A program made the translations under genes and the position numbers. This document shows positions 45,432 to 56,513 of a stretch of DNA of 56,513 nt, one piece after another (position 1 is the stretch's first letter; each line of letters begins with the position of its first letter). The stretch is from Laspinema palackyanum D2c. Lineage in GTDB: Bacteria > Cyanobacteriota > Cyanobacteriia > Cyanobacteriales > Laspinemataceae. The stretch is taken from the NCBI RefSeq assembly GCF_025370875.1, contig NZ_JAMXFD010000009.1:148731-205243 (forward strand), read 5' to 3'. A model generated the notes under the pieces. The model saw only the letters and a list, made by a program, of their open reading frames with translations. It searched no databases and was not told the origin of the DNA.

Positions 45432-46562
45432 CTAGGGTTCTGGGAGGGGTTTGAGGGTGATTTTCCACTCGGTGAGACGGGAAGCGAGTTGGAGATTTTG
45501 GTCGTCGGGTCCGAGGGCGACTGCCAACTGATCCAGAGGAACGAGCACTTCAGCGGATTGATTCTCCACATCGAGGGCGATCGCCCCTTCCACTTGTGCG
45601 GGAGCTAAAGCATTAGCAATATAGGTGGCGGGGTCTTCGGACCAGGGAATCACTTCGATTTTTTCCCCAGGGATTTCCTGGGCGATCGCATTGAGATGTT
45701 CCCCTAGTTTACCGATACAAGCTGCCACCGGATCAACTTCCGGATCCAGAGAATGGACCGCGATTTTAGTACGGGGGGCGATATCGGGTTTCGTGGGGAT
45801 GGAATCTCGGGCGACTCCTTTAATTTCAACGATCGCCTGTCGAATTTCTGGAACGCGATCGCTAAACAAACCGGAAACCAGATAACTGGTGGCGCGGGAC
45901 ACCCGTAACATGGGTTTAGAACTAGGGCGATCGAAGACTTTTTTTAGATAAACCTTCAACTGAGCACCCTCTTGATAGTCATCATTGGGTAGCTTCTCAT
46001 ATTTGGGAAGTTCCGCTTCCACCAGGGGATGACCCGCACCTCCGCTGACTCCCAAGACGACCCCACGAGCATCACTTTTGAGGACCTTACCCACAAGAAC
46101 GGTCCCCTTGCGATCGGCAAACGTCTCTTGAATGTATTTGCACTGCTGTTCTTGCAACTTTTGGGTGAGGACCGTTTTGGTTTGTAACGCCGCCAGACGA
46201 CCGAAATCTCCTTGATTGGGAGTCACATCCACAATCACGCGATCGCCAAGTTTGACTTTTGCGCCCTTTTTAATCGCCAAATCCAGGGGAATTTCGCGAT
46301 CGCTATCCTCCACCGTCTCCACCACCGTCTTCGTCGCAGTCACCCGAAACCCTTCAGCTTTCAGGTCAAGTTTGACCGCAAAATTTTCAAAGTAGTCTTC
46401 GGGAAAATCCTCATCATTGCGGACTTGGGTCCGACGATAGCGCTCATATCCTTTCAGTAATGCAGCTTTCAGCGCTGCCTGGACCGCAAGGGGCGGCAAA
46501 GAGCGCTGTTGACTCATCGTATCAAGCAGCGATCGGAGTCCGGGAAGACTGACCATCGACAT
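45432..46562 (-). CDS. nusA: Transcription termination/antitermination factor NusA
   Basis: Binds RNA polymerase and RNA, tuning pausing, termination and antitermination. 376 residues with the ATG at 46562, set by a perfect AGGAGG eight bases upstream. The N-terminal domain has LPPLAVQAALKAALLKGYERYRR and DRVIVDVTPNQGDFGRLAALQTK. S1 domain: KGTVLVGKVLKSDARGVVLGVSGG. KH1 and KH2 include ARAPRTKIAVHSLDP-like and ACIGKLGEHLNAIAQEIPGEKIEVIPWSEDP. No AR domains are present, normal outside Gammaproteobacteria. rimP, ylxR and infB are not adjacent. Confidence 0.95.
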   Translation of the reverse strand: MSMVSLPGLRSLLDTMSQQRSLPPLAVQAALKAALLKGYERYRRTQVRNDEDFPEDYFENFAVKLDLKAEGFRVTATKTVVETVEDSDREIPLDLAIKKGAKVKLGDRVIVDVTPNQGDFGRLAALQTKTVLTQKLQEQQCKYIQETFADRKGTVLVGKVLKSDARGVVLGVSGGAGHPLVEAELPKYEKLPNDDYQEGAQLKVYLKKVFDRPSSKPMLRVSRATSYLVSGLFSDRVPEIRQAIVEIKGVARDSIPTKPDIAPRTKIAVHSLDPEVDPVAACIGKLGEHLNAIAQEIPGEKIEVIPWSEDPATYIANALAPAQVEGAIALDVENQSAEVLVPLDQLAVALGPDDQNLQLASRLTEWKITLKPLPEP

Positions 46563-46691
46563 TGAGAACACCTCCTACAACGCTGTTCCAAGTAGCTCTG
46601 CGCTTAGGGAATTTTACCTGAAAAGCTCACTCTTTTTTCTAATCATTCCCTGGGAAGGGTGGGGAGATTGAGGAGAGGGGGGAGATTATTT

Positions 46692-46851
46692 GTAGTAACG
46701 ACTTTAGTCGTTGCTCTCGTGTTATGGCGGATGCCATAACACGAGCAATCTGAGGGTCTACCGCCTTGCCTGCTGGGGAACTGGAGAGAGCGCCTGACAT
46801 TGGGGCCTGACGAAAGCATCCGCTTTCATCACGCGGTAACGACTGAAGTCG
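46692..46851. repeat. MITE-like element, family 2 copy C (decayed right end)
   Basis: Left end GTAGTAACGACTTTAGTCGTT, then the CGTGTTATGGC...GCCATAACACG hairpin. The right end reads AACGACTGAAGTCGGGACG, so its terminal repeat has been lost or altered. Confidence 0.8.
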
Positions 46852-46929
46852 GGACGTTGAACAACTCCCCCATCCCCCCCATCAAGATAAGACCAATGAC
46901 CAATGACCAATGACCAACGACAATTAACC

Positions 46930-49296
46930 TTAGACAAAATCGCCCGTTGTAATAATCAGGTTGCGGATCGCGGGATCGATGCCTTCGAGGAGAGCAATGA
47001 CCACCGAGGTATCCTTCGCCAGGACAATAGTCGTGTCGCTGGGCGACTCTCCAATGGGTGCAGAAATGAGTAAGTCACTGACTGTTAGACCGCCAGTGAG
47101 AATAAACTTATCTTGTCCATCCTCAAAATCCGTAATGGTGGCAGTGACTCCGGGACGCAATACAAAGAAGTCCCTGCCTGCGCCTCCGGTATAAACCACA
47201 ACTTCCCCAGCACCCCCATCGAGGGTGTCGCTGCCTTCACCACCGAGAATGGTGTCATTGCCATTGCCGCCGATGAGGAAATCGTTCCCGGCATCTCCCG
47301 TGAGGACATCATCCCCATCGCCACCATTGACGAGATCCTCCCCAGCACCACCGTTGATGGTATCGCTACCGGCAGCGCCTAATATACTATCGTTTCCGGC
47401 ATCGCCGTTGATCACGTTGCTGCCTCCGGTGGCAACAATGGTATCTGCACCGTCCCCGCCGTTGATGGTATCGTTACCGGCACCCCCGATGAGACTGTCG
47501 TTGTCGATACCACCATCCAGTACATTCTCCCCATCCCCAGCAATTAGAGTATCGTTGCCTTCATCGCCAACGAGGGTATCGTTGCCTGCTTCTCCAAATA
47601 AGATGTCATTCTCCTGACCCCCGCGCATTTGGTCATTACCATCGCCGCCATAGAGGATATCTTCTCCTTCATTCCCCAAAATGGTGTCGTTGCCAATGCC
47701 GCCGAGTAAACTATCGTTTTCGGCACCTCCTTCTAGGAAGTCATTGCCCTCATCGCCTAAGAGGGTATCACGGCCCTCATTGCCAATTAAGGTATCGTTG
47801 CCTCCTTCGCCAAATAATAAATCCTCCCCAGTTTCGCCGAGGAGGGTATCATTTCCGGTCCCACCAAACAGGGTATCGTTTCCTAAATCCCCAGAGAGGA
47901 AATCCTCGTCTGCTTCCCCAAATAACAGGTCTTCCCCCTTGCCGCCAAAGAGGGTATCGTTCCCTACACCGCCTCGCAGGGTATCGCGGCCCTGGTTGCC
48001 AAAGATGTTGTCCTCCCCTTCTTGACCACTAAGTTGATCGTTACCTTCGCCGCCATAGATGCTATCGTTGCCTGCACCCCCAATCACGGTATCGTTACCG
48101 AGGTCCCCAAAGAGCAGATCGTTGTCGTCATCCCCAAAGAGTTGATCGTTATCTTGTCCCCCATAGATGGTATCAGCACCATCACCCCCGGCGAGGGTAT
48201 CATCTCCTTGATTACCAAAGATGGCATCATTCCCGTCATTGCCGAAGACGGTATCGTTGCCTTCACCGCCAAAGAGTTGGTCGTTGCCATCCCCACCAAA
48301 GAGTTGGTCGTTCCCCTTGTCGCCGTACATGAGGTCGTCCCCACTTTCGCCGTAGAGGGTATCGTCATCTTGGCCCCCGTAAAGGGTATCGTTAGCGCTG
48401 CCGCCATTGAGGATGTCATTCCCCACATTGCCAAAGATGATGTCATTACCGGCTTGCCCGATCACATTATCTTCACCGGCTCCAGCATAGACGAGATCAT
48501 CTCCGTCGCCACCAGCAATGGTGTCATTGTTGATGCCGCCACCGAGGAGATCGTTGCCGCTACCCCCTTCAAAAATATTGAATCCGGACTCACTGGTGAG
48601 GGTATCGTTGCCCTCATCTCCGGAGAGAAAATCGTTTCCGGGTCCAGCATCGAGGAAGTCCTCCCCTTGACCCCCGAAGAGGGTATCGTTCCCTTCTTCC
48701 CCAAAGAGTTGATCGTTCCCTGCGTTCCCAAAGAGGATATCTTCCCCAACGCGGCCAAAGATTCGGTCGTTCCCGGCATTACCAAAAATGGTGTCGTTGC
48801 TAACGGATCCAAAAATGGTATCGTCACCGACGCTGCCTTGGAGGGCGTTAGGGAAATTGAATCCCACAATATTACTACCTGCGGCACGGGCGGCAACGAC
48901 TAAACTCCAGTAATGGTTCGCGTTAAAGTTGCCGGTATCGTTTTCTAGGAAGAAATAACCAACGCCGATATTATCAACTCCGGGTTTGAGGAGGGTGTCT
49001 CGCTGTCCGGGATCGTTGAACCAATTTTCGACGACTTGTTCTGGGGTGGGAAGGGCCGCCGCGATATTCTCCTGGAAGTTACTAAAGCGGTATCCCACTG
49101 CGCCCAACCGGCTGACTGTTGTGGAGCCATCTGAGCCGGTGAGACTGAAAAAGTCGTTATCCGCCATATCTTCGGCATGGATTTGGGCGGCTCGATTCAA
49201 TTGAGAATCAAGGGCCACGGGCGGCAAATTGGCGAGGGCGCGTCGTTGATTGACTAGCGCTACAACCTGATTGATAAATTCAGAGTTGGTTGTCAT
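46930..49296 (-). CDS. CAP-domain protein with RTX repeats
   Basis: 788 residues, highly acidic. Residues about 1-145 form a CAP/SCP-PR1 domain (INQVVALVNQRRALANLPPVALDSQLNRAAQIHAEDMA; GVGYFFLEND; NHYWSLVVAA). Residues about 155-735 are RTX nonapeptide repeats of the type GGxGNDxLx, roughly sixty copies, each pair binding Ca2+ in a beta-roll. The C-terminus (FFVLRPGVTATITDFEDGQDKFIL) is typical of type I secreted RTX proteins, and no N-terminal signal peptide is present. It is likely exported by an ABC type I system encoded elsewhere. Start supported by AAAGGAGAA. The opposite strand carries long shadow frames due to the repeats. Confidence 0.9.
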   Translation of the reverse strand: MTTNSEFINQVVALVNQRRALANLPPVALDSQLNRAAQIHAEDMADNDFFSLTGSDGSTTVSRLGAVGYRFSNFQENIAAALPTPEQVVENWFNDPGQRDTLLKPGVDNIGVGYFFLENDTGNFNANHYWSLVVAARAAGSNIVGFNFPNALQGSVGDDTIFGSVSNDTIFGNAGNDRIFGRVGEDILFGNAGNDQLFGEEGNDTLFGGQGEDFLDAGPGNDFLSGDEGNDTLTSESGFNIFEGGSGNDLLGGGINNDTIAGGDGDDLVYAGAGEDNVIGQAGNDIIFGNVGNDILNGGSANDTLYGGQDDDTLYGESGDDLMYGDKGNDQLFGGDGNDQLFGGEGNDTVFGNDGNDAIFGNQGDDTLAGGDGADTIYGGQDNDQLFGDDDNDLLFGDLGNDTVIGGAGNDSIYGGEGNDQLSGQEGEDNIFGNQGRDTLRGGVGNDTLFGGKGEDLLFGEADEDFLSGDLGNDTLFGGTGNDTLLGETGEDLLFGEGGNDTLIGNEGRDTLLGDEGNDFLEGGAENDSLLGGIGNDTILGNEGEDILYGGDGNDQMRGGQENDILFGEAGNDTLVGDEGNDTLIAGDGENVLDGGIDNDSLIGGAGNDTINGGDGADTIVATGGSNVINGDAGNDSILGAAGSDTINGGAGEDLVNGGDGDDVLTGDAGNDFLIGGNGNDTILGGEGSDTLDGGAGEVVVYTGGAGRDFFVLRPGVTATITDFEDGQDKFILTGGLTVSDLLISAPIGESPSDTTIVLAKDTSVVIALLEGIDPAIRNLIITTGDFV

Positions 49297-49399
49297 CTCA
49301 TTTTTCTCCTTTGGGCTTGCTTGCCTTATAATCCATCAAATCATAATGGCGCGTTTTCTATAGAAATGCCAAAGGAGAATGGCTGGGGTGAGTGGGGTT

Positions 49400-51043
49400 C
49401 TAAAAGGACCGACAAAGTTGGAAGTCCGAGGGGACCTCGGGAATCAAACGGGAATTGGCTAGGGTTTCTAATTCCTGCAAGAGTTGGCTTTCAATGGGTG
49501 CCGTTGCCAAAATTTCAGGTTTGAGATCCCCCCATTTTTTGCCGGATTGGGTCTGATATCGGATTAAGGCGTGGGGGATTTTTTTGGAGATGAAGACGCG
49601 GGGAGGGGCGAGTTGTCCTAATAAGCGGGCATGGCGATAATGGGGCGATCGCATGAGTTCACGATCTAACCGTTGGGCGATCGCCTCCGGTGGGTCTTGG
49701 GCTTCATCCAGTAACAATAGATAATGGGCAACGGGCTGGGTCACGGGGACGAGGGTTTTGAAAAAGGTGGTTTTTAAGCATAAGTCTTCGAGGACGGTTT
49801 GGACAAAGGTTTCGGAGAGCTTTTCCCCGACTAAATCGCTGATGCTGCGATCGCGTCCTAGGAATTCTAAACAGGGGGTTTTGTGATAAAAATGGGTGAC
49901 TCGAATGCGATCGCCGATCCGATAACGATACAACCCCCCTTTTTGAGAAATAATCAGAGTATATTCTTCCCCCTGTTTAATCTCATGGAGTTTATAAATC
50001 TTTTGGTGATCATCCTCAAATTCAAAAAACACTTCATTGATCAGGGGAACAAATCCCTGGGCTGCAATCAAGGGAATTGTCATCGGCGCTTCTGTTGCCA
50101 GCAATCCTTTCCCCTGTACCATCACCCCGGGAAACAGTTTTCGCAGAAATTCCGCCTGTTCCCGCGAGTGACTACTATCCCAACAGGAAATCAGTTTCAG
50201 TTTCGGCCAAATTTCAGTCCAGGGAATCGGCGATAACCTCAACTGTTGGGCGCGTTGGCGAGAGATTTTCTGACCTAATTTCTCGATGAGTGACTCGCGA
50301 TGGGTTTCCATATAATCTAACAGCACTTTCAGAAAGCTGGGACTCCAAATGGAAATGGCTTCTAAGCGGTCTTCGCATAACAGTTCTAAACTTAACTGTT
50401 CTTTGAATTCATCGGGGTTTTGTAGGTGTTTCAATCGAGGCGGTGCAACTAATACCAAACTGAGTAAAGCCCGCAACCACCCATCTAAATATTCAGAATC
50501 ATCCGCCAAACCCCCAGATATTTCCGTGATAGCTTGGGGGTCTTTTAGTTGGGGGGAAATACAAAAATAAAACTTCCCCGTCTCAAATTTAGGTCCATTC
50601 TGAATCAGGTCATGCACCCACACACAAAACATGGAGTTGAAGCTAGAACGCAGGGATTGAGTATAGGGAATCCATTTAGCGGGTCCCCGACTCCCCGAGG
50701 TTTTTTCATAAAATAAAATTGGTTCAGGAGTCAGAGACTTTCCCGGCAAGGAAGTCTGGTTATCGGGTTCCTCCAGTTCCAAGTTGGATGTGGGATTAGC
50801 GTGTTCTATCCAGGCTTTAATATCCTCATAGTCTACAATCGGAATCTGATTCCATTGCTGATTTAAGGAAGCTTTTGGATCGGAGGTTAAATCCAGGGAT
50901 TTACCATAATCACTGCATAGAAAATTTCGATAAATTTGTTGTTGGACGGCCCGCTGAGACCTCCGAGGAATTTGTAAGGCTTGGGAAAATTTATGGGCAT
51001 ACACCCCGAGCAGAAAACAAAAAAGTTTGATAATAGAACGCAT
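49400..51043 (-). CDS. GH3-family acyl-acid amido synthetase
   Basis: 547 residues. GH3 enzymes belong to the adenylate-forming superfamily and join an adenylated acid to an amine, often an amino acid. ATP motif I FYEKTSGSRGPAKWIPYT lies at 111-128, motif II GKGLLATEAP at 311-320, and motif III YRYRIGDRIRV at 372-382, with the C-terminal domain following. The ATG at 51043 is preferred; an upstream TTG at 51100 is unlikely. It is the last gene of the seven-gene minus-strand cluster, 184 bases after the LbH transferase. Its acid and amine substrates are unknown; plant GH3 substrate residues cannot be transferred to it. Confidence 0.85.
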   Translation of the reverse strand: MRSIIKLFCFLLGVYAHKFSQALQIPRRSQRAVQQQIYRNFLCSDYGKSLDLTSDPKASLNQQWNQIPIVDYEDIKAWIEHANPTSNLELEEPDNQTSLPGKSLTPEPILFYEKTSGSRGPAKWIPYTQSLRSSFNSMFCVWVHDLIQNGPKFETGKFYFCISPQLKDPQAITEISGGLADDSEYLDGWLRALLSLVLVAPPRLKHLQNPDEFKEQLSLELLCEDRLEAISIWSPSFLKVLLDYMETHRESLIEKLGQKISRQRAQQLRLSPIPWTEIWPKLKLISCWDSSHSREQAEFLRKLFPGVMVQGKGLLATEAPMTIPLIAAQGFVPLINEVFFEFEDDHQKIYKLHEIKQGEEYTLIISQKGGLYRYRIGDRIRVTHFYHKTPCLEFLGRDRSISDLVGEKLSETFVQTVLEDLCLKTTFFKTLVPVTQPVAHYLLLLDEAQDPPEAIAQRLDRELMRSPHYRHARLLGQLAPPRVFISKKIPHALIRYQTQSGKKWGDLKPEILATAPIESQLLQELETLANSRLIPEVPSDFQLCRSF

Positions 51044-51227
51044 TCTGGTTATCCAATGACAATGGGCTGAATCAACAATTGGAGATAATTGACAATGCAA
51101 AAATTTAGGATTATTTGGCCCCCATCAAGAAAATTTTAATGGGCTAAAGTCCTGAAGGAAACCCCCATCATTATCAACTCATTATTTATACAGCCTAATT
51201 TTCCTATAATCCGCCTTTTATATAAAT

Positions 51228-51857
51228 TTAATTAGGGGAATCATGGCGGGGAGTGATTTTAGTATTGGGATAAAGATGGGTGGCAATGGGAAGATAAGCG
51301 CCATCGGCGATGGTGACTCCCGGACCGAAATGTGTCCCAGAACCGACAAACACATTATTGCCAATTTTGACGGATTTTACATATAGCATTAAGTTGTTAT
51401 GTTTGGGTTTAATCACATGACTGTAAATCCCAACTCGATGACCGACAATGGTGCGATCGCCTACTTCTAATAATGCGCGATCGGCCAGTTCTAAAATTGG
51501 CATCCAATAAATCCCGCGCCCAATTTTTGCCCCCCACAATCTCAACCACAGGGAAAAAGCCCCGGGAATCAGTCTTAAGACGGATTCAATCGCAGGAAAT
51601 GTAATATAAATCGCCTGAATTTGATGCCCTCCCCACCAAGGAGAATAATCTGGCCCTTTCAAATAAGAAATTCCTTCTTTTAGGGGATAAAAATAATCAT
51701 GAATCCGATAAACCATTACCGGAAATCCATACAAAGAAAACAGTAAAGCAAAAATCCCTAAAATGCCCGGATAGAAACAAATCCACAGAAAAGATGCTGC
51801 GGTCATTCCCATGACGATCGCTGGAAAGAAGGAAAGAATCAAACTGAGTAAGGTCAT
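51228..51857 (-). CDS. Left-handed beta-helix acyltransferase-like membrane protein
   Basis: 209 residues. Residues about 1-60 contain two hydrophobic segments (LLSLILSFFPAIVMGMTAASFLW and GIFALLFSLYGFPVMVYRI). From about 115 a hexapeptide-repeat left-handed beta helix begins (AKIGRGIYW, RALLEVGDRTIVGHRVGIYSH, VKIGNNVFVGSGTHFGPGVTIADGAYLPI), typical of acetyl/acyl transferases. The helix seems short and the C-terminus ends soon after. It lies 41 bases from the hydroxylase gene on one side, in the oxygenase cluster. A role in acylating the pathway product is inference. Confidence 0.75.
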   Translation of the reverse strand: MTLLSLILSFFPAIVMGMTAASFLWICFYPGILGIFALLFSLYGFPVMVYRIHDYFYPLKEGISYLKGPDYSPWWGGHQIQAIYITFPAIESVLRLIPGAFSLWLRLWGAKIGRGIYWMPILELADRALLEVGDRTIVGHRVGIYSHVIKPKHNNLMLYVKSVKIGNNVFVGSGTHFGPGVTIADGAYLPIATHLYPNTKITPRHDSPN

Positions 51858-51898
51858 TGAAGTTAATTTTATAAATTAAACGCGGCTAAAACCATAGA

Positions 51899-52624
51899 TT
51901 AAAACGGCCAGATTAACTTTTGAACTAAGGTTAAATCCGTAGAGATTCCCAAAGCATTCGGTGCCTTGTTACTGTCATGATTTGTGCCATGTAATCGGTC
52001 CCATAGTTTTAAATTTGCTCCATAATTGACCCCAGCAGACTCCCTAGCATGATGCCATGCATGATCTATTGGTAAAATCAACCAAGGGGAGAGCAAGCGA
52101 TGCAACATCGTGCCTGGTAAAGGTTCGATTTCACTATGCCGCCATAAATCTAAAATTGAGGTCAAACTTACCCCAATAATATAGGCAGTCGGGTCTTGTA
52201 GCGAATAGATAAATAGAGCATGAATCCAGAGGTAAACGATTAAAAAACTGGTCCATAAAGTATTGCGAGAAGTCCCGAGAACTTGCCGGTCAGTCATGGT
52301 ATGATGAACCAGATGCAACCTCCACAACCAGCGACTATGCAGGAAGCGATGATTCCAATAATACAGGTAATCCACCCCGGCAAAACTTAGGCAAAATGCG
52401 AGGAGAGGATGTAAGGTAAACATTCCGCGACTGTCGGGGATAAAATACTGATAGACTTGATAAATCAGAACCAATTGCAATAGCGGAATTAAAATGCCTT
52501 GAAAACATAAGCCAATTCCATCTAGCAGCCAATCTTGCCAAGATTTTTCCTTGAATTTTGCCCAGTGTTCTGTTCGGATTACCGTCAAAATTACCAAAGT
52601 GCCAAATGCGATAAAAATAGCCAT
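51899..52624 (-). CDS. Sterol desaturase / fatty acid hydroxylase family protein
   Basis: 241-residue membrane enzyme with a diiron centre held by eight or more histidines. Motifs: H92-x3-H96 (NHRFLH), H104-x2-HH (HLVHH), His163, and H188-x2-HH (DHAWHH). About four membrane helices are seen. It would use O2 and electrons from a ferredoxin or cytochrome to hydroxylate or desaturate a lipid-like substrate. The ATG at 52624 follows AGGAGA; a TTG at 52660 would overlap the upstream gene and is less likely. It lies 26 bases after the Rieske gene. Confidence 0.85.
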   Translation of the reverse strand: MAIFIAFGTLVILTVIRTEHWAKFKEKSWQDWLLDGIGLCFQGILIPLLQLVLIYQVYQYFIPDSRGMFTLHPLLAFCLSFAGVDYLYYWNHRFLHSRWLWRLHLVHHTMTDRQVLGTSRNTLWTSFLIVYLWIHALFIYSLQDPTAYIIGVSLTSILDLWRHSEIEPLPGTMLHRLLSPWLILPIDHAWHHARESAGVNYGANLKLWDRLHGTNHDSNKAPNALGISTDLTLVQKLIWPF

Positions 52625-52650
52625 AAATCTCCTGATGTAGTGGATAAACC

Positions 52651-53673
52651 CTAAACCCAAAAGTTAACGGTTACGGATTTTTGGGGAAGTAATCTCGGGT
52701 CTTCCCCGGCTGAAATGGCCTTGCGAATGGATTCGACAAAGACATGAATGGTATCCGCTGGAGTATTGGCAAATTGAGTGCCATATTTCTCAATCACCTC
52801 TTGCTGAATCCGCAAAATTTCTATATCTTGCTTAATAATATATTGGGCAGTCCAGCGCACAAAAGGACGGGCGATTTTGTTCCAAATGCCATAATTAAAA
52901 GTCACATCGGTATAAACTAACGTGGAATCTTCTGCTTCGGGAATCGACTGACTGGTAATAAAAAACCGACGGTTTTCTCCAAACTTATATTCCACACTGG
53001 TCACATTCGGCATAGAAAACTGGTCTGTATGGGAAATTTCCCCGCCTTGAGGATTTAAAAACCGGGAATACCATCCCAAATTGGTGGTTTCATTCCGATA
53101 GGTGACAAACACCGAACCATCCCGGCGTTCCACGGTCATTTCTAACTGTTTTTGCTGGGGTTTACGAAAAACTCCAGGATGCACCGAGGCGGTATGAGGG
53201 ATATCAATAAAGTTTTCAGCACAATTAGTGACATTGTTGCGAAATCGGTTAATTACGCGCACAGTTTCCCATCCCGGTTTGCCGTAATAAGGCATGGGAA
53301 AAGGCTCAAGATTGAGATTAGGATTCTCTGCTAATCGGACATAAATATAGCCGTCTTTTTCTTGAGTGGGATAAGAATGAGTCCGACGAGAGGCAAGGTT
53401 TTTAAACTGTTCTCCTTCCGCAGGAACTGCTACGACTTGACCCGATTTATCATAAACCCATCCATGATAGGGACAATGCAGCATCCCATCGCAGACTTTG
53501 CCACGAGAGAGACGACTATTGCGGTGCATACAGCGATCGCGTAATGCCACCACGTCCCCCAGTTCATCCCGAAAAATAGCCAACCATTCGCCCAAAATCG
53601 TGCGAGAAAGCACTGTTTTGGGTTTCAGTTGATCACTGAGGGCCACCACATACCAAAAGTCTTCAAATCCCAT
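52651..53673 (-). CDS. Rieske non-heme iron oxygenase 2
   Basis: 340 residues. Rieske oxygenases use a [2Fe-2S] cluster to pass electrons to a mononuclear iron that activates O2. The Rieske ligands are Cys48-x-His50 (DRCMHRN) and Cys67-x2-His70 (HCPYHGW). The mononuclear site is Asp157-x2-His160-x4-His165 (FIDIPHTASVH). The start ATG follows GAGGAA located inside the preceding ferredoxin gene, five bases away, so translation is probably coupled. It is one of two Rieske oxygenases in the cluster. Substrate is unknown. Confidence 0.9.
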   Translation of the reverse strand: MGFEDFWYVVALSDQLKPKTVLSRTILGEWLAIFRDELGDVVALRDRCMHRNSRLSRGKVCDGMLHCPYHGWVYDKSGQVVAVPAEGEQFKNLASRRTHSYPTQEKDGYIYVRLAENPNLNLEPFPMPYYGKPGWETVRVINRFRNNVTNCAENFIDIPHTASVHPGVFRKPQQKQLEMTVERRDGSVFVTYRNETTNLGWYSRFLNPQGGEISHTDQFSMPNVTSVEYKFGENRRFFITSQSIPEAEDSTLVYTDVTFNYGIWNKIARPFVRWTAQYIIKQDIEILRIQQEVIEKYGTQFANTPADTIHVFVESIRKAISAGEDPRLLPQKSVTVNFWV

Positions 53674-53678
53674 AATTG

Positions 53679-53966
53679 CTATTCCTCAAAAGGGGCGATC
53701 GCAATATCATTCGTCACATCCACTTGACAAGCTAACCGCGCTTGCGGATTTCCCGGAGCTAAAATTTCTAAAACCTCTCTTTCCTCCAAATTAGCCGGGG
53801 GAATATCTCCCTCAATCACACACAAGCAAGTCCCACAAATTCCCGTCCGACATCCAAACAAAATCGTTGAATTCTGCACGGTCAAATAATTAGCCAAATT
53901 GTCATGCTGAGGTAAGGCGATCGCTGGATAATTGGTCCCTGGAAATCTCACAAAACAACACTTCAT
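53679..53966 (-). CDS. Plant-type [2Fe-2S] ferredoxin
   Basis: 95 residues. It carries electrons, here most likely to the adjacent oxygenases. The cluster ligands are Cys39-x4-Cys44-x2-Cys47 (CRTGICGTC) and Cys80 (LACQVDV), the standard CX4CX2C...C pattern. It ends five bases before the Rieske oxygenase 2 gene. Sequence details such as the ILFGCRTGICGTC block match bacterial dioxygenase-type ferredoxins as well as photosynthetic ones, so the partner is inferred from context. No reductase gene is seen in the cluster. Confidence 0.92.
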   Translation of the reverse strand: MKCCFVRFPGTNYPAIALPQHDNLANYLTVQNSTILFGCRTGICGTCLCVIEGDIPPANLEEREVLEILAPGNPQARLACQVDVTNDIAIAPFEE

Positions 53967-54065
53967 AAAAACCCATCCTTTAGTTTATTTCCTCGTTCCC
54001 AGGCTCTGCCAGGGAATGCTCAATTGGAGGCTCTGCCTCCTGCTAATCCCACCCCAAACAACCTT

Positions 54066-55115
54066 TTATTCCCTCTCAACCCGAACTTTTGACCAAACCG
54101 AAGGCGTTAATCGCTCTACATATTTCATATACTCCACCAACGGGCGATCGATACTCAGCAAAGCATTCGGATTGTACCGGATATTGTCATAAATCTTCCC
54201 ATCTTCCCCCTTTAAAAATAAATAAAGCATCTTCGTACAAAACAATAAAAAGTAGGTAACAACCCAACCCCAAATTCCCGGACGACGGGCGGCTACATAA
54301 ATATTTTGCACCTTAATTTTCCCCGGTTCAACGGGAAGATAAGCATAAATCATGTGCAAGGGTGGAAGCAATTTAACATTTTTCATTGTGGTTAACAGCC
54401 CCAAACAAGCATTCTGATATCTCATGCTATAGGCATAATTTTCCCCTAAAAATTTCCGCGCTAGTTGTTCTCGCGGGGTGGTATTCGGAAATTCCCCACT
54501 GAGGGTAAAATCCATCAGACTACCGGATTCATTTTCCTCTAACGTCAGTTTCATATTAATATTAACTTTATGCACCGTTTGCAGATGTTGAGCATCAATC
54601 CCATTCATCATGCAAATGTGATGATGGCAGGTGCGTTCAAACGGGCGATCGCGAACAGCAATCACTTGTTTTCCCTTAAGTTCATCGAATTCTGCTACCC
54701 CTTCCGGGGCCTTTGTATCGGGATAAACCCAAATCATGCCATATTTTTCATCAGTGGCATAAGATTGTAATCGGGCTTTTTCCGGAATGCTGGATTGACA
54801 GGGAATATCCTGACAGTTTCCCTCTCCATCAAACGCCCAATGATGGAAAAAACAGCGGATTAAATTCCCATCCACTCGCCCAATTCCTAAGTCAGTTCCA
54901 AGATGGGGACAATAGGCATCTAAGGCGCGGACTTTGCCATCTTCATCGCGAAAAATAACAACTTGCTGTCCGCAGACTTCCAAGGATTTAGGTTTATTTC
55001 GGGGCAGTTCTTCACTGGGACAAGCAATGTACCATCCTTTGGCAACCACATCCCAGTTATTAAAGATTTGCATCTCGGTTCGAGGTTGGGTGTTTTGATT
55101 CTGCCGGGAATTCAT
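54066..55115 (-). CDS. Rieske non-heme iron oxygenase 1
   Basis: 349 residues. The Rieske ligands are Cys69-x-His71 (YCPHLG) and Cys88-x2-His91 (CFFHHW). The mononuclear iron ligands are Asp174-x2-His177-x4-His182 (GIDAQHLQTVH). A hydrophobic stretch near 278-295 (GWVVTYFLLFCTKMLYLFL) suggests membrane attachment. It is clearly different in sequence from Rieske oxygenase 2. It lies 31 bases after the AurF-like gene and 99 bases before the ferredoxin gene. The two oxygenases probably act at separate steps. Confidence 0.9.
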   Translation of the reverse strand: MNSRQNQNTQPRTEMQIFNNWDVVAKGWYIACPSEELPRNKPKSLEVCGQQVVIFRDEDGKVRALDAYCPHLGTDLGIGRVDGNLIRCFFHHWAFDGEGNCQDIPCQSSIPEKARLQSYATDEKYGMIWVYPDTKAPEGVAEFDELKGKQVIAVRDRPFERTCHHHICMMNGIDAQHLQTVHKVNINMKLTLEENESGSLMDFTLSGEFPNTTPREQLARKFLGENYAYSMRYQNACLGLLTTMKNVKLLPPLHMIYAYLPVEPGKIKVQNIYVAARRPGIWGWVVTYFLLFCTKMLYLFLKGEDGKIYDNIRYNPNALLSIDRPLVEYMKYVERLTPSVWSKVRVERE

Positions 55116-55146
55116 GGGATTTTAAGGGGGATGAGAGGGATAAATG

Positions 55147-56376
55147 TTAATCTAAAGCAACTTGCAATAAAGGACGCTGAGGATGGGTAAAAGGGGCCGA
55201 AAAACGCCGAGAGAGCGCTTTTTTCTGCGTGGCTAGATAGCGAGGAATCGAAGTTGCTGCCATAATAGACATTTCACGGTTACTTTTCCAGGCATAGTCC
55301 ACTTTTTCGAGATAGAATTGATAGGATGCCCTTGCCTCTTGATGGGTTTGATAGCTGCGATGGAGTCCTTCAGTTTCCTTGGTAAAGCACTCTTGCATCA
55401 TCTGTTTGGCATCCGGGTCACTCATGGCAAAGACGGGCGATCGCAACAGTTCATAAATCGCCGAATAGAGGGCCGGGTCGTACCAAAATATCCCATTAAT
55501 CGCTACGGAAAAATTAGCGTGGTCTTTCTGGCATCCGCGCAATCCCAGGTTGGCGACAAACGCCTCAAATGGGGTGGGCTTTTTCAAACAGTTAACTACT
55601 TCATGGGATAGCAGGGTTGAACTATTAAAATGAAAGCTCTCATCTAAAAAATGATAATAAGAGATTTTAGCCGGGATTGGAGCATTTTCTTGGTCTGGGT
55701 GATGTTGGTAATATTGGCTTAACTTATGCTGGACCAATTTTCCGTTTAAGGTTCGCAGTCCGCGCACGGTAAAGTATTGACAAGCTAGAAATGTATTCCC
55801 GGAAGAGAGCATTCCAAAGTAGCGGAGTTGGAGTTGTTTCCACCAGGTTTTTAAAGCATTGGTATCGGCGTGAACCATTGTTTCGGTGTAGGGTCCGCGC
55901 ATGGGGTAAGTGAAGATGCGTTTGCCAAATAATGCTGCTTCTACTTGTTCTGAAATGGTTTTAAAGGCATTAATATGTGCCCGTTCTTGGGCGGATTCTA
56001 AATCTAGCATATCGCAGACTAAGCGAAAGTCTTCCTGAGCATATAATCCAGCGGCGCTGGTTTGATTAAACAGGATTGTAGCAATTTCTGCGGAGATGAT
56101 TTGGGAGTAGTAAGCGACCCAGTAGAGGTGATTGAGGATAAGCTTTTGGGTGGGGGTGGATTGGTCCCAGAGGGGGGTTCCGTAGAGGAGGGAAAATTCT
56201 TCGGGGTTCCAGTATTCTTGTTGGCAATTGGGATAGGAGAATTTGCCGGCGGCTTGGTCGATGGATGCGGTTTGGTCTTGTTGTTGATTGCGGTGGTAGT
56301 TGAGTTGGAGTTTTCGGTAGATTTTTTCGTGTTCTAGGAGGGTGTTGGGTTTGGGTTCGTTGAAAATGTTGTTCAT
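55147..56376 (-). CDS. AurF/CmlI-like diiron oxygenase
   Basis: 409 residues, soluble, no close family named with certainty. Ligand spacing fits AurF-type N-oxygenases: Glu97 (SAEIAT), Glu131-x2-His134 (ERAH), then His242-x3-Glu246-x2-His249 (HFLDESFH), the same H-x3-E-x2-H as in AurF/CmlI. The third bridging Glu of AurF is not obvious; Gln200 or Glu165 are the nearest candidates. AurF and CmlI oxidise arylamines to nitro groups, and other relatives oxidise different amines or carbons. It is the first gene of the visible cluster, transcribed leftward. The gene could begin an operon whose upstream part lies beyond the window. Confidence 0.75.
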   Translation of the reverse strand: MNNIFNEPKPNTLLEHEKIYRKLQLNYHRNQQQDQTASIDQAAGKFSYPNCQQEYWNPEEFSLLYGTPLWDQSTPTQKLILNHLYWVAYYSQIISAEIATILFNQTSAAGLYAQEDFRLVCDMLDLESAQERAHINAFKTISEQVEAALFGKRIFTYPMRGPYTETMVHADTNALKTWWKQLQLRYFGMLSSGNTFLACQYFTVRGLRTLNGKLVQHKLSQYYQHHPDQENAPIPAKISYYHFLDESFHFNSSTLLSHEVVNCLKKPTPFEAFVANLGLRGCQKDHANFSVAINGIFWYDPALYSAIYELLRSPVFAMSDPDAKQMMQECFTKETEGLHRSYQTHQEARASYQFYLEKVDYAWKSNREMSIMAATSIPRYLATQKKALSRRFSAPFTHPQRPLLQVALD

Positions 56377-56403
56377 AATTTGGATGAATGGGGGATGGGG
56401 GAG

Positions 56404-56513
56404 AACGACTGAAGTCGTTACTACGAACTAAGATAAGAGAACGACTGAAGTCGTTACTACGAACTAAGATAAGAGAACGACTGAAGTCGTTACTACGAAC
56501 TAAGATAAGAGAA
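56404..56513. repeat. 36-bp palindromic tandem array at the window edge
   Basis: Units with AACGACTGAAGTCGTT begin at 56404, 56440 and 56476, period 36, continuing past the end. The same palindrome is used in the 34-bp array at 35703-35860 and in the ends of family 2 elements. Confidence 0.9.

Follow-up and report, generated by a model that had tools for sequence, protein, structure and literature searches.

We analyzed a stretch of 56,513 nucleotides (the window) from the 7.0-Mb genome of the cyanobacterium Laspinema palackyanum D2c (G000:C9:148731–205243), in which seven minus-strand genes at 49400–56376, among them a CylC-like enzyme of the AurF superfamily, two Rieske oxygenases and a GH3-family enzyme, are part of a larger conserved gene set. 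About ten genes make up this set, which we hold almost without reservation to be one pathway, apparently kept or lost as a whole, and which is very probably biosynthetic. The best explanation for the locus as a whole is a co-inherited pathway that builds a small oxidised, perhaps chlorinated amide, a reading to which we give an even chance. The genes at the locus, from the highest coordinate to the lowest, are:

57679–58740 (window-equivalent; L002:8410–9471), minus strand, beyond the window end: RieC, third Rieske oxygenase
56684–57631 (window-equivalent; L002:7415–8362), minus strand, beyond the window end: FerL, ferritin-like protein
55147–56376, minus strand: CylC-like (AurF-superfamily) dimetal enzyme, probable halogenase (motifs; Pfam AurF 23.3 bits, below the cut-off of 29.6)
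54066–55115, minus strand: Rieske oxygenase RieA (Pfam Rieske 93.5 bits)
53679–53966, minus strand: [2Fe-2S] ferredoxin, probably of the Fed6 type (Pfam Fer2 34.1 bits; published gene order)
52651–53673, minus strand: Rieske oxygenase RieB (Pfam Rieske 84.9 bits, VanA_C 39.8 bits)
51899–52660, likely ATG at 52624, minus strand: fatty-acid hydroxylase/sterol desaturase family protein, FAH (Pfam FA_hydroxylase 83.7 bits)
51228–51857, minus strand: hexapeptide-repeat (left-handed beta-helix, LbH) acyltransferase family protein (Pfam Hexapep 35.2 bits)
49400–51100, likely ATG at 51043, minus strand: GH3-family enzyme, probable ATP-dependent acyl-acid amido synthetase (Pfam GH3 N, M and C domains, 79.8, 71.2 and 30.4 bits, respectively)

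The list of open reading frames and the Pfam matches reproduced the seven consecutive genes, with the families and gaps that an earlier note on this DNA had described. The gaps of 31, 99, 5, 26, 41 and 184 bases hold if FAH and GH3 start at their first ATG and not at the upstream TTG. The note had taken these seven genes as the whole cluster. They do belong together, but the cluster continues past the window end, where the sequence to the right of position 56513 adds FerL and RieC upstream of the CylC-like gene on the same strand, i.e., at least nine pathway genes lie at the locus and about ten are conserved overall. The tenth, c7, had no Pfam or NCBIfam match. Its AlphaFold model (pLDDT 90.4) matched GNAT acyltransferases (best E 3.2e-6), and in the window's own genome this GNAT lies on contig C1, away from the cluster.

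In a set of 386 Cyanobacteriota genomes, the 21 with orthologues of the CylC-like enzyme, the 21 with RieB and the 21 with GH3 were identical. Matches in the 386 genomes numbered 33 for the CylC-like enzyme (E ≤ 1e-20), 44 for GH3 (E ≤ 1e-10) and 31 for RieB (E ≤ 1e-50), and the orthologue thresholds (E ≤ 1e-150, 7e-87 and 3e-118, respectively) were set after the score gaps had been seen. Below the top 21 genomes, scores fell from 5.5e-154 to 3.0e-70 for the CylC-like enzyme, from 2.9e-118 to 9.7e-89 for RieB and from 6.8e-87 to 3.7e-70 for GH3, the smallest gap of the three. We then compared the 21 positive genomes with 21 negative ones, which were hand-picked and not random (12 with weak CylC-like matches, nine without). 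FerL, LbH and FAH were present in all positive and in none of the negative genomes, GNAT in all positive genomes and one negative. RieA was found in 19 of the 21 positive genomes and, at paralogue level (34%), in one of the negatives. For RieC and the ferredoxin, the counts are confined to the loci. Eight of the negative genomes have a congener among the positive ones, and presence is therefore patchy and, for the tested genes, all-or-none in those genera.

The set persists where its genes are scattered. On the single 3.7-Mb contig of G076 they occupy five places, with RieA at 0.515 Mb, GH3 at 0.976 Mb, ferredoxin and RieB at 1.38 Mb, FAH and LbH at 1.57 Mb, and GNAT, RieC, FerL and the CylC-like gene at 1.93 Mb. 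In G125, FAH, LbH and GH3 lie 2.9 Mb from the CylC-like gene. G076 and another of the genomes, G093, are presumably Synechocystis. Since the gene set co-occurs even when dispersed, this speaks strongly, in our view, for a single pathway. A search for the set in other cyanobacteria had been proposed in the earlier note, which took the oxygenase-rich genes to belong together, and its outcome bears this out: as the set recurs in other genomes, it is not a chance assembly.

Stretches fetched around the CylC-like gene from 38 loci (37 distinct, as L039 and L070 are identical; several end at contig ends) gave the same picture. Two or more Rieske genes were present in 32 of them, the ferredoxin in 34, FerL and RieB in 33 each, FAH and LbH in 30 each, GH3 in 29 and GNAT in 27. 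This neighbourhood comparison was made without L001, L003 and L040, the motif counts of the Rieske oxygenases given below and the Mantel test without L070, and the latter also without L069. Between-locus distances of the nine other genes correlated with those of the CylC-like protein (Mantel r 0.87–0.95), and none of 999 permutations reached these values. Four named homologue records are not labelled cyanobacterial, i.e., metagenome-assembled genomes (MAGs) of a gammaproteobacterium, a member of the Halobacteriovoraceae and two Oligoflexus. Among viral contigs, 22 stretches fit the search pattern and none encodes a relative; a plasmid collection gave only homologues of 27–29% identity in four records, with no sign of this clade on the plasmids there.

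From the gene set, its conservation, its co-occurrence when dispersed and its catalytic motifs we infer the reactions and the product. The pathway would comprise GNAT, RieC, FerL, the CylC-like enzyme, RieA, the Fed6-type ferredoxin, RieB, FAH, LbH and GH3. GH3 would activate a free carboxylic acid as the adenylate and join an amine to it, and N- and O-acyl groups would come from GNAT and LbH. Oxygenation of the skeleton would fall to the hydroxylase-family enzyme and to RieA, RieB and RieC, with the ferredoxin as their electron carrier, and FerL would be a putative second diiron oxidase. The CylC-like diiron enzyme might chlorinate an unactivated carbon, or functionalise it by another radical route, on a substrate that is not bound to an acyl carrier protein (ACP). 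That the acid is acyl or lipid-like, as proposed earlier, is unproven. Promoter- and terminator-like matches in 46000–56513 were no commoner than in shuffled sequences and speak neither for nor against an operon.

Seven of the nine active-site residues defined for the diiron halogenases CylC and NocO belong to QExxH and HxxDExxH, and a Gln takes the place of AurF Asp135 (PMC12101540). A 2026 preprint uses ExxQExxH and HxxDExxH as halogenase motifs and lists the Gln of the former as specific to halogenases (PMC12871659). The CylC-like protein of the window carries both motifs (E127, Q130, E131, H134 and H242, D245, E246, H249), as do all 38 aligned loci, and in a MAFFT alignment eight of the nine active-site residues were identical in 38/38. 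The ninth, NocO E252, corresponds to a Gln (Q216) in 37 of the 38 loci and to Glu in L069, which would give the window clade a fixed neutral residue at this position. We equated position 216 with NocO E252 by MAFFT and motif spacing, with the NocO sequence outside the alignment: E252 and D282 are 30 residues apart in NocO, as are their counterparts in distant homologues, compared with 29 residues between Q216 and D245, so a one-residue gap is assumed. Compared by eye, distant CylC-type homologues in L024–L032 have KxxE where the window clade has KxxQ. The L069 protein is 33% identical to that of the window, and its gene adjoins a ferredoxin gene and genes that look like polyketide synthase (PKS) genes. 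The nearest named relatives of the window protein, in Laspinema, Oscillatoria and Phormidium records, are 92–94% identical to it, and the window's genome holds one CylC-like match.

In NocO, the E252A variant is inactive and chlorination is abolished (PMC12101540); an altered reaction in the Gln-bearing clade is therefore possible. The enzyme could be a diiron hydroxylase or desaturase, and the product would then be polyhydroxylated and unhalogenated. It also fits this alternative that the scan of the genes with domain libraries turned up neither an ACP nor a FAAL. On the other hand, both halogenase motifs, with the halogenase-specific Gln, and the eight further active-site residues are unchanged. 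Moreover, Gln at the E252 position has been noted in a small group of CylC homologues, and the side chain there has been proposed not to be an iron ligand but to leave the iron and open the chloride site (Wang et al. 2025, PMC12101540). We consider a non-halogenating enzyme rather unlikely, and halogenation as the CylC-like step an evenly poised assignment. CylC and NocO act together with ACP, and FAAL and ACP are used in their pathways (PMC12101540). We propose, tentatively, that a diiron halogenase clade with Gln for the displaced Glu chlorinates a free small molecule without a carrier, with a GH3 ligase replacing the FAAL/ACP logic, and that this Gln-marked clade occurs in Synechocystis-type cyanobacteria and in non-cyanobacterial MAGs.

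GH3 is the candidate for the activating step. Its N, M and C domains all scored above the Pfam cut-off, and TSGS..G..K and YRxGD, which we take to be nucleotide-binding motifs, are conserved in at least 95% of 29 homologues. The assignment as an acid-amine ligase made in the earlier note is plausible. Its statement that PKS and nonribosomal peptide synthetase (NRPS) genes are lacking was right for the scanned genes, which include neither these nor any carrier protein. We suggest GH3 as a candidate acid-activating enzyme that has been overlooked so far, and it is somewhat probable that it makes an amide. OlsH for GH3 and OlsE for FAH were the only NCBIfam matches at E ≤ 0.01, and OlsH produces lyso-ornithine lipid (PMC12493201). 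Hence, the pathway might instead yield a phosphorus-free aminolipid under phosphate limitation, in which GH3, like OlsH, would form an N-acyl amino acid, which LbH would then O-acylate, and the oxygenases would decorate the chain. The fed6 gene ssl2559 is indeed induced by phosphorus limitation, largely in a PhoB-dependent manner; this response may, as its authors suggest themselves, stem from the upstream sll1291 operon (PMC11126600). One extended cluster holds a PhoD-like phosphatase gene (L039:2658–4373), of possible relevance to phosphate-limited expression. The scores, however, are far under the family cut-offs, with 22.3 of 620 bits for GH3 against OlsH (NF052613) and 52 of 475 bits for FAH against OlsE, and the scanned genes include no alpha/beta-hydrolase of the OlsI type. 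In our judgement, the patchy distribution and the many oxygenases are also odd for a structural lipid, and we regard the aminolipid as unlikely. The OlsH/OlsI ornithine-lipid pathway (PMC12493201) likewise combines a bacterial ligase of the GH3 family with a neighbouring acyltransferase gene; in the window, the acyltransferase is of another family and many oxygenases accompany it.

The suggestion in the earlier note that N-oxygenation may occur, with an N–O compound formed from an amine by the AurF-like enzyme, has in its favour the weak Pfam AurF match and the N-oxygenase CmlI as best structural neighbour (E 0.39), but we set it aside as very improbable on the active-site residues, as AurF Asp135 corresponds to Gln130 and AurF Glu196, by assignment, to Gln216, and the ExxQExxH motif, which AurF and its homologues are reported to lack (PMC12871659), is present. 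Chlorination is likelier than N-oxygenation because the enzyme carries the CylC halogenase motifs.

The CxH-CxxH Rieske and NxxDxxHxxxxH mononuclear-iron motifs are found in 26/26 and 25/26 RieA, 32/32 and 32/32 RieB, and 32/33 and 33/33 RieC sequences, respectively. The His clusters of FAH are conserved among homologues, and LbH has, by eye, a hydrophobic N-terminal segment. FerL gave weak MiaE and Ferritin_2 matches below cut-off. E91, E126xxH129, E174 and E204xxH207 are conserved in at least 95% of its 33 homologues, a pattern that we take to be that of a diiron ferritin-like enzyme. Saxitoxin-type tailoring employs a Rieske pair, a ferredoxin and a sterol-desaturase-like enzyme. Among solved structures, RieB matched DdmC best, with SxtDIOX and SxtT slightly lower among the top hits. 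A saxitoxin-like product is unsupported. No PKS or amidinotransferase domain occurs in the scanned proteins; the likeness is a common toolkit and not evidence of the same product. NocO (nocuolin) and CylC (cylindrocyclophane) share superfamily and active-site motifs with the window enzyme, in which residue 216 is Gln. With the FAAL and ACP of their pathways missing from the scanned genes, a nocuolin-type pathway was set aside.

The cluster type, which had been called undescribed, is already published. Eusebio et al. (2021, PMC8406957) described 36 "Rieske-containing" CylC clusters as a product-less orphan class with two to four Rieske proteins and one CylC homologue, most with a sterol desaturase. 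A PriA-containing variant occurs in Synechocystis, where the remaining functions are dispersed. The window cluster, with three Rieske genes, an FA_hydroxylase and one CylC-like match in the genome, fits this class. An untethered substrate was proposed in that work since no activating enzyme or carrier protein lies nearby, and its main text does not contain the term "GH3"; we add the co-occurring GH3, LbH, FerL and GNAT and tie the Gln residue to the class. CORASON missed the Rieske-containing clusters, and 40 of 95 clusters were added by hand, presumably including these (PMC8406957), which makes it plausible that standard cluster finders could miss the set, as had been expected.

The locus also resembles the fed6 "cluster f" of Cassier-Chauvat and Chauvat (2014, PMC4284462), with the order ho, Rieske, ho, ho, fed6, pobA, sterol desaturase, ho. 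This corresponds to GNAT, RieC, FerL, CylC-like, ferredoxin, RieB, FAH and LbH in relatives such as L041, whereas in the window the CylC-like and ferredoxin genes are separated by RieA, and the GNAT gene lies on a different contig. Cluster f is treated there as ferredoxin context, with no halogenase, GNAT, GH3 or product named in that treatment. The table marks Synechocystis PCC 6803 as f* and lists Oscillatoria acuminata PCC 6304 without fed6 (PMC4284462). From published gene order alone, the ferredoxin is most likely Fed6 (ssl2559) of PCC 6803. In L074, the ferredoxin–RieB pair comes after genes that by similarity resemble response regulators. By gene order (desD sll0262, GGDEF/EAL sll0267), sll0263–sll0266 of PCC 6803 would presumably be GNAT, RieC, FerL and the CylC-like gene, respectively. 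Expression of sll0266, which would be the CylC-like gene on this reading, falls under iron deprivation (PMC3516471).

Several observations concern genes in and around the locus. A 36-bp tandem repeat (3.1 copies) at 56401–56513 (L002:7132–7244), between FerL and the CylC-like gene, runs into an unread stretch (X in translation), which is likely an assembly gap at the repeat. The gene directly behind GH3 (46930–49296) encodes a protein with a CAP domain and 31 stretches of RTX calcium-binding repeats; it adjoins the cluster directly only in Laspinema-like loci (L033–L036, L038). We considered this gene as a CylK-like alkylating partner and set it aside, as Pfam gives CAP and RTX repeats only; as a direct neighbour, this candidate is likewise confined to Laspinema-like loci. 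Some of the loci also have genes for a Mpo1-like, a GT2 and a SnoaL-like protein. An amidohydrolase is present in 12 of the 21 positive and none of the 21 hand-picked negative genomes; we kept these four as a second tier out of the core. By similarity to scanned relatives, the amidohydrolase, Mpo1-like and SnoaL-like genes stand together on contig C38 of the window's genome (L089:8376–11366). A GNAT gene is found near a divergent GH3 and a desaturase-type gene in L084 (G199) and L088 (G062), in L084 also near a Rieske gene, and no CylC-like gene lies within either stretch. These groups are possibly a sister pathway, and GNAT and GH3 may be a reusable module.

A number of findings weigh against a single pathway to an oxidised, perhaps chlorinated amide. 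The Mantel correlation ignores species relatedness. RieA is missing from two of the 21 positive genomes. GNAT occurs in G199 and G062 beside a divergent GH3 without a CylC-like gene and is hence by itself not a pathway marker. CylC and NocO depend on ACP, and the scanned genes include none. Judged from sequence, Gln at a Glu position essential in NocO could mean a changed reaction, and the 22.3 bits of GH3 against OlsH would leave acid and amine unassigned. The model of the CylC-like protein (pLDDT 76.6) had CmlI, RNR R2 and AurF among its best fold matches, none at E ≤ 0.001, so this predicted likeness is weak; a sequence search of solved structures with the CylC-like profile gave no match at E ≤ 10. 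Finally, the open-licence literature as far as covered names no product and gave no tie between GH3 and the cluster.

For an orphan class of halogenase-type clusters, our analysis brings the list of parts close to completion, names a candidate enzyme for acid activation and makes a sharp prediction about the active site. The cluster type itself was known; new here are its Gln216 signature and the observation that GH3, LbH, FerL and GNAT co-occur. The pathway would also bear on a conflict about fed6, which was reported essential in PCC 6803 in 2014 (PMC4284462), whereas in 2022 fx6 was fully deleted (segregated) with photoautotrophic growth similar to wild type (PMC8887894). If the ferredoxin is Fed6 of PCC 6803, metabolomics of a standard laboratory strain could be used to look for the product. 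If the proposal of a carrier-free aliphatic halogenase is true, such an enzyme would be useful as a biocatalyst.

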